64,000 bases of DNA from Fervidobacterium sp. (GTDB lineage: Bacteria; Thermotogota; Thermotogae; Thermotogales; Fervidobacteriaceae), in contig JANZZV010000001.1 in assembly GCA_026419195.1 (NCBI GenBank), positions 62,001 through 126,000 of the forward strand. The letters run 5' to 3'. Below are positions 12,989 to 17,819 of this stretch, piece by piece. Numbering within the stretch: position 1 is the first letter of the stretch; every line of letters starts with the position of its first letter. The notes below the pieces were generated by a model, which was not told the DNA's origin, did no database searches, and saw nothing but the letters and a program-made list of their open reading frames with translations. The position numbers were made by a program, and so were the translations under genes.

Positions 12989-13009
12989 AATTTTTCGGAG
13001 GTGAAAGTC

Positions 13010-13339
13010 ATGGCTATCAAATTTGATAAAAGGGAAGTTTCTGGGAAACTTGTAGTTTCTATACATGGAGAGATTGATGCTTATCACTCTGGGGAGGTTA
13101 AGAAATTCTTAAAAGATGTCATTACAGAGACTAAACTGAGCAAGGTAGTGCTTGATATGTCCGAAGTTAACTACATAGACAGTGCTGGACTTGGGAGTCT
13201 TGTCGCATTGTACAAAGATGCCAGAATGGCGGAAAAGGAACTTATACTTGCAGCTCTTAAACAGACTGTAATGAGAATATTTGAAATGACAAGACTTGAT
13301 AGGGTGTTTAAAATAGTTTCCACTGTAGAGGAGGCTTAA
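13010..13339 (+). CDS. STAS-domain anti-sigma factor antagonist-like protein
   Basis: This small STAS-domain protein (109 residues) resembles SpoIIAA/RsbV, which bind anti-sigma kinases and are switched by serine phosphorylation. The core pattern VVLDMSEVNYIDSAGLGSLVALYKDAR is present. The Ser of DSAGLG is the canonical phosphorylation site. No RsbW-like kinase or sigma gene is in the window, so its partner is unknown. The ATG at 13010 lies 8 bases after GGAGG. A GTG three codons upstream overlaps the ribosome site and is rejected. The gene precedes cmk by 4 bases, and the GAGGAGG at its end serves as the cmk ribosome site, so the two are probably translationally coupled. Confidence 0.88.
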   Translation: MAIKFDKREVSGKLVVSIHGEIDAYHSGEVKKFLKDVITETKLSKVVLDMSEVNYIDSAGLGSLVALYKDARMAEKELILAALKQTVMRIFEMTRLDRVFKIVSTVEEA

Positions 13340-13343
13340 TAAA

Positions 13344-14003
13344 TTGTATTGCAAAATAGCAATAGACGGACCTGCCGGTTCCGGTAAAACTACTGTTGCA
13401 AAACTAATAGCCCAAAAATTAAATATTGACTATCTTGACACTGGTGCAATGTACCGAATAATAGGGCTTTACTTGCATAATCTGGGGGTTGATCCGAAGG
13501 AGAGTAACTTGGATGAGTTTTTAAAAGATTTAATCATCGACTATTCGAATGGTACATTTTATTTAAACGGTAAAAAGATTGAAGAGGAGATAAGAACTCC
13601 AGAAGCTGGAATGTATGCATCAATGTATGCGGCAAATCCACAAGTAAGAAAACATCTTACTAAGATGCAACAAGAAATATGTAAAAATAAGAGTATAGTA
13701 GCCGAAGGTAGGGATATAGGAACCGTAGTAATGCCTGATGCAAGGGTAAAGATATTCCTTGTTGCCTCACCGGAAATAAGGGCACAAAGACGTTACAAAG
13801 AACTAAAAGAAAAAGGGATAGACGTTAGTTACGATGAGTTACTTACCCAAATCAAAAAAAGAGACGAAAATGACTCAACTCGTGAAGTAGCACCATTAAT
13901 AAAGCCACACGATGCAATAGAAATAGACACATCAAATTTGACAATAGAGCAAGTTGTAGAGAAAATATTACAGATTGTAAAAGAAAGGTGCTGTATATCA
14001 TGA
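13344..14003 (+). CDS. cmk: Cytidylate kinase
   Basis: Cmk phosphorylates CMP and dCMP with ATP, feeding CTP and dCTP synthesis. The 219-residue protein begins with P-loop DGPAGSGKTTVAKLIA. It has the CMP site motifs YLDTGAMYR and VAEGRDIGTVVMPDA, and the lid region RRYKELKEKG through RDENDSTRE. The start is TTG after GAGGAGGCTTAATAAA. The stop overlaps the ATG of the next gene as ATGA. The order cmk then ispH/S1 is widely conserved in clostridial and Thermotogales genomes. Confidence 0.96.
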   Translation: MYCKIAIDGPAGSGKTTVAKLIAQKLNIDYLDTGAMYRIIGLYLHNLGVDPKESNLDEFLKDLIIDYSNGTFYLNGKKIEEEIRTPEAGMYASMYAANPQVRKHLTKMQQEICKNKSIVAEGRDIGTVVMPDARVKIFLVASPEIRAQRRYKELKEKGIDVSYDELLTQIKKRDENDSTREVAPLIKPHDAIEIDTSNLTIEQVVEKILQIVKERCCIS

Positions 14004-16549
14004 GTTTGGAAGTTGTAAAGGGACCAATAGGATTTTGCTTTGGGGTGAAAAATGCAATTGATGAGATAGTTAAACGTCTTGAAAATGGTGAGATATTATT
14101 CACAGATGGAGATATAGTACACAATAACAATGTACTCGAGAAACTTAAGATACTTGGATTAAGATATGAACCACAGGGCAACTGTCGATTTGTTGTAAGA
14201 GCACACGGCTTACCGCCAGATAAAATTGCTGAAATCAGTAAAAAATACGAAATAGTTGATTTAACATGTCCAATAGTTAGTGAAAACTTTAGATTGGCAA
14301 CAAAGTTGTGTAATGACGGTTATCGTGTAGTTGTTTTCGGAAAGAAGGATCATCCTGAAATGATTGCATTATCAGGTTATGTAAATAACGCTATAGTTAC
14401 AACTGAATCCTTAACTTTACCTGATGATAAGATTGCAGTAATTAGTCAAACCACAAGTTCGCAAGAAGATTTCGTCAAATTTGTTGAAGAAATGCATTCT
14501 AAAAATAGAGGAAAGGAAATAAAAGTATTAAACACGATATGCAAAGTTACAATCGATAGAGAAAAGGCTGTAAATCAGTTAGCTAAATTATGCAATTTAG
14601 TAATCGTTGTTGGTGGAAAAAATAGTTCAAATACAAAAAAACTGTACGAAATATCCTCAAAAATCACTTTGAGCTTGCACGTTGAAAATATCAAAGAGTT
14701 TATAAACAGTTTAAACGAAACAAACCTTGGAGAACTACTCAAAGATGAAAAAATAAAAGTTGGATTAATAAGTGGCACATCAACAGATTCAAGCGATGTT
14801 GACAAAATAGCTTCATACCTTATTGAAAACTACGGTGGGAGGGAACTTTACATGGCGGATTTGAACAACATCTCGAAGGAAGAGCTTCTTGAGAAAAACG
14901 TTGAAGATTCGTTCGAACAACTTCTGAGTGAATACGAAAGTACAAATCAGGTGGGAAGGGGAAGGATCGTTGAAGGTGTTGTAACACAAATTTCATCAAC
15001 AGGTTTGGCTGTCGATCTTGGTGGAAAAGTTACTGGATTTGTGCCGTTAGAAGAACTTTTCAGAGAAATTAATGAGTATAAAGTTGGAGATAAGGTAAAG
15101 GCACGTGTGGAAAAAATAGACGAAAACGAAGGTACAGCAATACTTTCTGAAAAAAAGCCAATGGAAAGGTTTGTTCTTGAAGAAATAAGGAAAGCCAAAG
15201 AAAGTGGTAAAGCGGTTCATGGAAAGATAGTTGAACGTATAAAAGGAGGATACAAAGTAATTCTTGAAAACATCGTGGAAGCGTTTCTTCCAGGTAGTGA
15301 GTCAAACATAAAAGAAGATGAAGAAATACCAAAAGGAAAGGTTCAGTTTGCGGTTTTGTCTTTCGAAATCAGAGGTAGAAAAGCAAATATAGTGGTCTCA
15401 AGAAGGAAACTGTTCCAAAAATTAATTGAAGAATTTTACAACAATAGAAAGCCTGGAGATGTAATAGAAGGTATTGTTGAAGACGTAGATGAAAAAGGGG
15501 CAGTGATAAGAGTAGCTGGTGTTACGACTGGGTATATACCGAACAGCGAAATTTCTTACAACACTTCTGTAAAAGCAAAGGATGTATTGAACATAGGAAA
15601 AATAATGAAATTCTTAATAAAAGAGATAAACTCTGAAAAGAAAAGGCTAATACTCAGCTTGAAAGCTTTGTTGCCAGATCCATGGGAAAATGTACCTAAA
15701 AAATATCAAGTTGGTCAGATAGTAACCGGTGTTGTAACTTCAGTAAAGCCTTTCGGTTTCTTTGCCAAATTGGAAGATGGTGTTGAAGGATTCATTCCTA
15801 TAGAGGAAGTTTTCTGGCAAAGAAAGGGAAACATTAATGAAGTCGTTAGTAACGGTGATTTTGTAAGACTACAAGTCTTGGAAGTTAACCCGGAAAAGCG
15901 TCAGATAAAGTTGAGCTACAAGAGTGTAATTGGTGATCCTTGGGAAAATTTATCAGCCAAAATGCCCGAAGGGAGTATAGCGCAAGGTAAGGTAATAAAG
16001 GTACTTCCAAAAGGAGTCATTATAGAAATAGAACCTGAAGTAACTGCCTTTTGTAACATTTCCGAGATCTCATGGAATTTCGTTGATAAAGTTGAAGATG
16101 TCATTAAAGAAAACACAATTGTTCGTTTTCAAATTCTTAACATAGATCGTAACAACAAAAGAATACACGTAAGTATTAGAAAAGCGATGCCAAATCCGTG
16201 GGAAAACTTTGCAAAAATTCACAAAGAAGGAGATGTCGTAAGAGCTAAAATTATAAAGTCTATGGAAAAAGGATACATTGGTCTTTGTGAAAACATAGAA
16301 GTATACATACCGAAATCACAAGTTTACGAAAACTTAAACTTAGGCGATGAAATAGATGGTAAAATAATAAAGCTTGAGCAACAAAAGGATATTTACAAAA
16401 TTATAGTGAGTCCAAAAGCGTATGAACACTCTTTTGTTAACCAAGAGCGAAGTAGTGATTTTGGAAAGGTAAACGTGGAGGTAAAAATTCCGAATGACTC
16501 AAAAATTCAGAGAGAAAGTACCGACGGTGCTAATAGTAGGCAAGAGTAA
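14000..16549 (+). CDS. ispH-rpsA: HMBPP reductase (IspH/LytB) fused to six-repeat ribosomal protein S1
   Basis: Residues 1-280 are IspH, the iron-sulfur enzyme of the last step of the MEP isoprenoid pathway. The three cluster cysteines are C13 (GFCFGV), C90 (DLTCP) and C181 (NTICKVT). Substrate residues include H41, H69, H118, E120 (HPE) and the KNSSNT loop. Residues 285-849 hold six S1 RNA-binding repeats, starting near GRGRIVEGVV, GKAVHGKIV, GDVIEGIV, GQIVTGVV, GSIAQGKV and GDVVRAKI. Similar fusions occur in clostridia. Oddly, GGGAGGG stands 8 bases before an in-frame ATG at 14852 (codon 285), exactly at the join, so free S1 may also be made. The 3' end overlaps der by 56 bases. The ATG at 14000 is chosen over a GTG four codons upstream. 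Confidence 0.93.
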   Translation: MSLEVVKGPIGFCFGVKNAIDEIVKRLENGEILFTDGDIVHNNNVLEKLKILGLRYEPQGNCRFVVRAHGLPPDKIAEISKKYEIVDLTCPIVSENFRLATKLCNDGYRVVVFGKKDHPEMIALSGYVNNAIVTTESLTLPDDKIAVISQTTSSQEDFVKFVEEMHSKNRGKEIKVLNTICKVTIDREKAVNQLAKLCNLVIVVGGKNSSNTKKLYEISSKITLSLHVENIKEFINSLNETNLGELLKDEKIKVGLISGTSTDSSDVDKIASYLIENYGGRELYMADLNNISKEELLEKNVEDSFEQLLSEYESTNQVGRGRIVEGVVTQISSTGLAVDLGGKVTGFVPLEELFREINEYKVGDKVKARVEKIDENEGTAILSEKKPMERFVLEEIRKAKESGKAVHGKIVERIKGGYKVILENIVEAFLPGSESNIKEDEEIPKGKVQFAVLSFEIRGRKANIVVSRRKLFQKLIEEFYNNRKPGDVIEGIVEDVDEKGAVIRVAGVTTGYIPNSEISYNTSVKAKDVLNIGKIMKFLIKEINSEKKRLILSLKALLPDPWENVPKKYQVGQIVTGVVTSVKPFGFFAKLEDGVEGFIPIEEVFWQRKGNINEVVSNGDFVRLQVLEVNPEKRQIKLSYKSVIGDPWENLSAKMPEGSIAQGKVIKVLPKGVIIEIEPEVTAFCNISEISWNFVDKVEDVIKENTIVRFQILNIDRNNKRIHVSIRKAMPNPWENFAKIHKEGDVVRAKIIKSMEKGYIGLCENIEVYIPKSQVYENLNLGDEIDGKIIKLEQQKDIYKIIVSPKAYEHSFVNQERSSDFGKVNVEVKIPNDSKIQRESTDGANSRQE
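14837..14854 (+). promoter_or_regulatory. Internal ribosome site and ATG for a separate S1 product
   Basis: GGGAGGG (14837-14843) is followed by 8 bases and an ATG (14852-14854) in frame with the fusion. It sits between the last IspH helix and the first S1 repeat. Initiation here would yield a 565-residue S1 protein. This is one of the best ribosome sites in the window although it is inside a gene. Confidence 0.7.
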
Positions 16550-17819
16550 CGTAGGCAAGTCAACGCTTTTTAATAAATTGATAGGTAAAAGAAAATCAAT
16601 AGTTGCAAACGAGGATGGAACAACACGTGACGCGGTCATAGACCGCGTCATTTGGTATGATAAGGTTTTTCAATTAGTTGATACATGTGGGATTTTTGAA
16701 CAGCAGAAAGATGAGATATATGAAAAAAGTAAAGAGATGACGTTTAAAGTGCTATCAGAAGCAGCTCTTGTTTTATTTGTAGTGGATGGACGAAACGGAC
16801 TCTCATCCGAAGATTTTACGATAGCAGATTTGCTTAGGAAGTCAAACGTTGAAGTGTTGCTAGTTGCGAACAAAGTTGAAAATGAGAAGATTTACCAAAC
16901 GATTTTGCCTGACTTGTTTTCACTTGGATTTGGTAAACCATTTGAGGTGTCAGCTGAGCAAGGTAGAAATCTTGATGAATTGTTAGAAAACGTGATCTCG
17001 ATTCTCGAGTCAAAAGGTTACGATCTGAGCATGGAGGAAGAGCAAAACATCGTAAGAGTTACGCTTGTTGGAAGACCAAATGCTGGCAAGTCTTCTCTTT
17101 TCAACATGTTGATCGACGAGGAAAGAGCACTTGTAACTCCCATCGCTGGTACAACGAGGGATATAATTGACGAACTTATAAAAATAGATCAAACAAATTA
17201 TTTATTTGTGGACACAGCCGGATTACGTAAGAAAAGTAGGATAGAAAGTTTTTTAGAACGTGTAAGTACAATGCGAACAATAAATTCTATACAGCGCTCC
17301 GATGTGGTTGTGCTTGTCATAGACGCAACTGAAGGAATAACAAGGCAAGATCAGAGAATCGCAGGTTTGGCTGAAAAAAATGGAAAAGCAACAGTCATAG
17401 TTTTTAACAAATGGGACCTTGTAAAACATGCCGATAAGAGAATGAGTGATTACATAGACGAAGTCAAAGAAAAACTTTACTTCGTAGACTACAGCCCCGT
17501 AGTGTTCACAAGCGCTTTGCGTAAAATTGGTAAGAAAGAGTTGCTCATTGCAATAAATAAATCTTACAGTTCACTACACAAAAAAGTCCCAACAAGTGCA
17601 GTTAATAGTGCAATTCAACGTATGATTGTCAAGCCACCCCATGGTTTAAAGCTTTATTATGGTCTCCAGGTTGATATAAGACCCCCAACGTTTTTGTTTT
17701 TCGTTAACAATCCACAAGTGCCGGAAAGCTTTCAGAATGCTATAAGAAGAACGATTAGAGAGCAAGTTGATCCTTTCGCAGGTGCACCAATATTCTTAAA
17801 GTTTAAACAGAGGGAATAG
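16494..17819 (+). CDS. der: Ribosome-assembly GTPase Der (EngA)
   Basis: Der is a double GTPase needed for 50S subunit assembly. Domain 1 has GKSNVGKSTLFN, where the usual text is GRPNVGKS, then DTCG (G3) and NKVE in place of NKxD at G4. Domain 2 has canonical GRPNAGKSSLFN, DTAGLRKKS and NKWD. A KH-like C-terminal domain follows, with PPTFLFFVN and the ending FAGAPIFLKFK. The 441-residue length is normal. The start ATG is inside the last codons of the IspH-S1 gene, with GGAGG about 12 bases upstream, so coupling is likely. A perfect GC-rich inverted repeat lies 134 bases into the gene. Confidence 0.95.
   Translation: MTQKFREKVPTVLIVGKSNVGKSTLFNKLIGKRKSIVANEDGTTRDAVIDRVIWYDKVFQLVDTCGIFEQQKDEIYEKSKEMTFKVLSEAALVLFVVDGRNGLSSEDFTIADLLRKSNVEVLLVANKVENEKIYQTILPDLFSLGFGKPFEVSAEQGRNLDELLENVISILESKGYDLSMEEEQNIVRVTLVGRPNAGKSSLFNMLIDEERALVTPIAGTTRDIIDELIKIDQTNYLFVDTAGLRKKSRIESFLERVSTMRTINSIQRSDVVVLVIDATEGITRQDQRIAGLAEKNGKATVIVFNKWDLVKHADKRMSDYIDEVKEKLYFVDYSPVVFTSALRKIGKKELLIAINKSYSSLHKKVPTSAVNSAIQRMIVKPPHGLKLYYGLQVDIRPPTFLFFVNNPQVPESFQNAIRRTIREQVDPFAGAPIFLKFKQRE
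16628..16650. repeat. GC-rich inverted repeat inside der
   Basis: TGACGCGGTC, ATA, GACCGCGTCA: two perfect 10-base arms with a 3-base centre, far richer in GC than its surroundings. No T-run follows, so it is not a standard terminator. It encodes part of the switch I region of Der. Confidence 0.8.

Follow-up and report, generated by a model that had tools for sequence, protein, structure and literature searches.

Does the gene that joins ispH to rpsA in Fervidobacterium encode a single bifunctional protein, or two proteins from two starts? The window analyzed here, i.e., the whole stretch of 64,000 nucleotides, contains an 849-aa open reading frame of this kind. Such fusions are known as the IspH-RPS1 "Rosetta stone" family, found mostly in Firmicutes and carrying four or six S1 repeats (NF000907/PRK00087; PMC4746011). 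No other ispH or rps1 gene was present in the fused genomes examined in that earlier work, which treated the gene as one bifunctional protein, with no mention of internal starts, Shine-Dalgarno (SD) sites or Thermotogota; the protein studied there was N-terminally His-tagged, so that a free S1 would not be captured (PMC4746011). Our own search, mainly of the open-access literature, turned up no previous description of internal initiation in ispH-S1.

The first-pass annotation of this DNA had described IspH and six S1 repeats in one frame, and the open frame together with both domain matches confirmed this description (Table 1). The full-length protein exceeds the curated cut-off of NF000907, scoring 748.4 bits in our genome-wide search, and has the same domain order as the IspH-RPS1 family (PMC4746011). 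In the IspH part, the three [4Fe-4S] cysteines (C13, C90 and C181) and the other motif residues are invariant in our alignment. The S1 homology spans about residues 303-810. Residues 304-797 match the six-domain rpsA model TIGR00717 over model positions 2-509 of 516, with a score of 338 bits that lies under the curated cut-off of 577, as expected given the divergent lineage. A sequencing error as the cause of the fusion is ruled out, since each of the 11 relatives has this frame open as well. We searched the genome of the window and its congeners for a second full-length S1 and found none; the other matches in the genome turn out to be either lone S1 domains or S1-domain proteins of a different kind.

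Table 1. Features of the ispH-rpsA region, in positions of the window
Feature	Positions	Strand	Basis or remark
cmk (CMP kinase), upstream of ispH	13344..14003	+	TIGR00017, 249 bits; 4-nt overlap with ispH
Fused ispH-rpsA ORF, 849 aa	14000..16549	+	Open frame; NF000907/PRK00087 "bifunctional IspH/S1", 731.7 bits (cut-off 624)
ispH start ATG	14000..14002	+	Overlaps cmk stop (ATGA); weak SD, -3.9 kcal/mol
IspH (LytB/LYTB) domain, residues 8-274	14021..14821	+	Domain match
Internal SD GGGAGGG, within codons GGG AGG GAA	14837..14843	+	Unchanged in every fused relative within the clade
Internal in-frame start ATG, codon 285, of predicted free S1	14852..14854	+	Aligned with S1 start of unfused sister genera
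Predicted free six-domain S1 coding region, 565 aa	14852..16549	+	TIGR00717 rpsA matches residues 20-513 of the product
FEQLLSEY segment, shortly 3' of internal start	14912..14935	+	Sequence, alignment
der (EngA GTPase)	16494..17819	+	Out-of-frame start within S1 3' end (56-nt overlap); SD GGAGGT at 16477-16482

An N-terminal helix of S1 proteins docks on ribosomal protein uS2, and the FEQLLSEY segment is its likely counterpart here. Overlaps of the der type, of roughly 25-60 nt, occur in several relatives too (L002, L008, L010, L012, L014 and L015), and with the embedded der start of the window they make cmk-ispH-S1-der a chain of embedded starts. Directly 5' of this chain, at 13001-13339, lies a gene for a STAS anti-sigma-factor antagonist.

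The question of a second product turns on the site at the domain join. Here the first-pass annotation had reported GGGAGGG 8 bases before an in-frame ATG at codon 285, with a 565-residue product, and this is exactly what we find, the spacer being AACTTTAC. The 16S 3' end, taken from five relatives (the window's own assembly is without 16S), is GGATCACCTCCTTTCT; the anti-SD is canonical, and GGAGG is therefore a canonical SD. Scored as simple duplex energies against a background of one 390-kb contig with 350 ORFs, the internal site (-10.7 kcal/mol) is the best among 1,941 internal in-frame ATGs, and it falls in the top 5 of 4,793 internal ATG/GTG/TTG codons. The median gene start on this contig has -9.3 kcal/mol, and 28% of gene starts are equally strong. 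The in-frame start thus carries an SD at proper spacing, above chance expectation, and this SD is strong enough for de novo recruitment of the 30S subunit by the standard of this genome. The ispH start is weaker (Table 1), and in the ten fused Thermotogota checked the SD of ispH ranges from -3.9 to -8.9 kcal/mol, versus about -10.7 at the S1 site. That the S1 SD is the stronger in 10 of 10 indirectly supports the suggestion, made in the first-pass annotation, that S1 exceeds IspH. With respect to mRNA openness the site of the window is average, 54% of gene windows being equally open, and clostridial sites are unusually open for their genes (on average 21% of windows equally open). A point against initiation here is that ribosome traffic from upstream could reduce it. 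Equally strong SDs also stand before other internal in-frame TTG or GTG codons of the contig (G000:C1:287081, 95081, 114640 and 83727), which are candidates for mis-set gene starts or additional internal starts.

We then compared fused and separate genes across 61 Thermotogota genomes. The fusion is present in the genus of the window and its sister genus g2 (11 genomes), in g5, a genus of the Thermosipho clade (4 genomes), and in G048, which belongs to another family; in the remaining genomes ispH and S1 are separate and adjacent. Both comparisons that the first-pass annotation had proposed could be made in this set. Close relatives with the same fusion show no loss of the site, the join in all 11 genomes of the window's clade being GG(T/C)GGGAGGGAA followed by 6 nt and ATG, and Thermotogae with separate genes identify it as the old S1 start, for they have the real S1 SD and ATG in the same position, embedded in the final ispH codons. 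For example, unfused Thermosipho (g3) has TTAGGAGGGATTCAGTAGTATG, where IspH ends at TAG, and the fused sister g5 has TTAGGAGGGATGCTGCAAATG; in G011 (TTAGGAGGGATGCTGGAAAATG) S1 lies one base out of frame, and in G034 (GGGAGGTTGAGTTCTTATG) a single TGA stands between the frames. G054, an unfused congener of G048, has AGTTAAGGAGGTTACGATGTG, with TAA just 5' of the same SD, and fused G048 has AGTAAGGAGGTTTCTGAAGTG, i.e., AAGGAGG, 8 nt and GTG. The predicted N-terminus of the free S1 is the same as the S1 N-terminus of the unfused relatives. A 57-row tree requires three state changes, with bootstrap support, and the simplest reading by parsimony is that three separate fusions occurred in the Thermotogota, with the start retained each time; alternatively, there may have been one gain with later losses within the family. 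Two observations on individual genomes are recorded here. The S1 gene at L074 (G031, a closed genome of Thermotoga type) is split between two frames, as ORFs of 336 and 229 codons, with near-identical relatives intact, and this break is either a sequencing error or a real frame break. At G003:C1:1638918-1641471, a second copy of the 16S rRNA appears fragmented, with pieces partly out of order.

The explanation that we favor, and hold to be highly probable from these comparisons, is that fused genes would yield full-length IspH-S1 plus free S1 by internal initiation. Ribosomes from ATG 14000, with its weak SD and its coupling to cmk, would make the full 849-residue protein, and ribosomes loading directly on the internal GGGAGGG would use ATG 14852 as their start, giving a normal S1 of 565 residues that is free of IspH. 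In the fused state the internal start has no stop codon nearby, so stop-start re-initiation is impossible and the site must recruit the 30S subunit itself. We infer that initiation at this start takes place in the cell; the full-length protein is probably also made, as suggested by the open frame and its retention in most Clostridia, and the free S1 is presumably the more abundant of the two, supplying most ribosomes. Fusion itself would be easy, because the SD of S1 already lies within the last ispH codons: a one-base indel or the loss of one stop codon would join the frames and leave the S1 start unharmed.

Is the full-length protein of any use to the cell? The alternative that survives best, which we regard as possible but rather unlikely, is that only the free products matter, i.e., that the fused frame is a neutral accident, with little full-length protein made or needed and the gene working as two. 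It leaves the internal start itself untouched, and it is consistent with the difference in frame state between close relatives in both Thermotogota and Fusobacteria. In the Fusobacteria, which a profile scan of GTDB species supplied along with Clostridia, Campylobacterota and others, the genes are mostly unfused, and the fused ones (G061, G080 and G124) have an in-frame GGAGG or AAGGGGG with GTG or ATG; locus L098 has GGAGG and GTG. The finding that C. thermocellum IspH is fully active in vitro without the S1 repeats (PMC4746011) likewise favors this alternative. A neutral frame, however, should drift faster than is seen in Clostridia, where an even draw of 199 Bacillota_A genomes gave a fused-length frame in 124 of 150 ispH matches, among the matches listed, and where just four of the genes fetched have the embedded SD out of frame. 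These four, out of 19 unfused Clostridia (L282, L285, L286 and L293), contain the same SD with S1 starting out of frame right behind it, at GTG or ATG, which demonstrates that the same SD serves S1 when the frames differ; they can be seen as natural frame variants of the fusion and are of use as controls. An in-frame site was found in none of the 19. It is conceivable, though we hold this only tentatively, that across Clostridia, Fusobacteria and Thermotogota nearly all ribosomes carry free S1 from the internal start, and that the full-length protein is a minor, selected isoform by which a [4Fe-4S] enzyme sensitive to oxygen and iron is tethered to a small number of ribosomes or mRNAs, with the ratio set by the two starts.

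Whether the site is in present use is a separate matter, as the first-pass annotation had also allowed that it could be a relic of a recent fusion, i.e., a leftover of the old S1 start with no present function. The first half of that proposal stands, since the site really is the old S1 start; the second does not, since the site has been kept and the codon choice at the SD is fixed. When ten fused genes from the clade of the window are aligned, 195 degenerate amino-acid columns are invariant and only 10 of these are also invariant in codon, four of the 10 being TAC, GGG, AGG and GAA at the SD. The single codon-invariant Gly column (of 35) and the single codon-invariant Arg column (of 8) are both at the SD, and the longest identical nucleotide run in the whole gene is GGGAGGGAA, of 9 nt, with the next at 5. 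The linker directly 3' of the ATG is variable in sequence and length, so that general conservation does not explain the block. In fused Clostridia, where mean protein identity is 47%, only two of 85 Glu columns are 100% GAG, and both lie in the SD (mean 32%, next 56%); of 46 Lys columns only the one in the SD is 100% AAG (mean 40%); and nucleotides are conserved over a run of 7 at the SD, whereas no run outside it exceeds 3. The species compared are not independent, so these column-by-column controls, which use the same tree as the SD columns, weigh more than raw counts; many of the comparison genomes are metagenome-assembled. A relic is thus very unlikely: its SD codons are frozen where synonymous sites elsewhere in the same genes have turned over, and it persists throughout the fused Fervidobacterium clade and across Clostridia. 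Where the usual SD has been lost, in Clostridium gasigenes (L170) and at L104, a substitute SD and ATG stand a few codons downstream, an apparent turnover of the internal start, and those starts that are not ATG are GTG. In three phyla, then, the SD and the start codon are shown to be under purifying selection that goes beyond the encoded protein, and this codon conservation argues for two products, not one, from the bifunctional IspH/S1 gene.

The same codons could in principle act in elongation, with an SD-like sequence at the domain boundary slowing ribosomes to give IspH time to fold ahead of S1, and no initiation. Such a pause needs no start codon, yet all 62 evenly drawn and parsed clostridial fused genes have an AGGAGG-type SD in the last IspH helix, at -11 kcal/mol or stronger, with an in-frame ATG (57) or GTG (5) 6-10 nt on (six loci, L287-L292 except those parsed, plus L254, were missed by the motif search and left out). 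We also scored 58 fused genes from the profile scan. In 54 of them the codons (K/R/E)-E-(V/A) of the IspH C-terminal helix contain an SD that is perfect or nearly so, followed by ATG at initiation spacing, and L126 and L135 also fit with small variations; in 55 of the 58 no other internal start of the gene is as strong as the one at the join. Moreover, the start codon swaps only between ATG and GTG and shifts by one codon along with the spacing, and the same SD starts the out-of-frame S1 of unfused relatives, so that a pause is extremely unlikely. A constraint on the residues K-E-V or G-G-R alone has practically no chance of accounting for the conservation, for although the C-terminal helix of IspH does have a conserved (K/E)EV pattern, it is at only these columns that the choice among synonymous codons is fixed, and unfused Clostridia in which S1 does not overlap have no such SD, with background codon use or other residues there. 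Internal initiation at a second start therefore remains our preferred explanation, and the site is a rule of the whole IspH-S1 fusion family, not peculiar to this genome.

In-frame internal starts have precedents, as IF2-beta is made from within infB. Others are Cas11 within cas8b (PMC11899642) and RpnS within RpnL (PMC10327210). As in these three systems, an in-frame internal start is here predicted to give the C-terminal part as a protein of its own. Unlike in them, what is nested is an entire ribosomal protein, its gene fused to that of an unrelated enzyme, and the internal start can be shown to be the start that the gene had before fusion, kept after several separate fusions. The unfused relatives resemble overlapping, translationally coupled gene pairs (e.g., the clusters of PMC3711429), in that the SD and start of S1 lie within or at the end of ispH, but the fused gene, with no stop near the internal start, differs in needing de novo initiation. 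With its predicted second product, a free S1, the gene of the window also departs from the one-protein view of IspH-RPS1 (PMC4746011).

In a large share of Clostridia, gut and pathogenic species included, IspH-S1 is the only S1 and the only IspH, and it is currently annotated and interpreted as one bifunctional protein. The two-start reading is directly testable by a synonymous change of the SD (AAGGAGGT to AAAGAAGT). If the internal start is used, protein databases, proteomics and essentiality screens would need revision, as would the "Rosetta stone" argument that places IspH on every ribosome. The two starts would then also reconcile the low copy number of the enzyme with the need for about one S1 per ribosome, and the family would illustrate a clean route to gene fusion, in which the downstream start already lies inside the upstream gene and the frames may join or split without loss.
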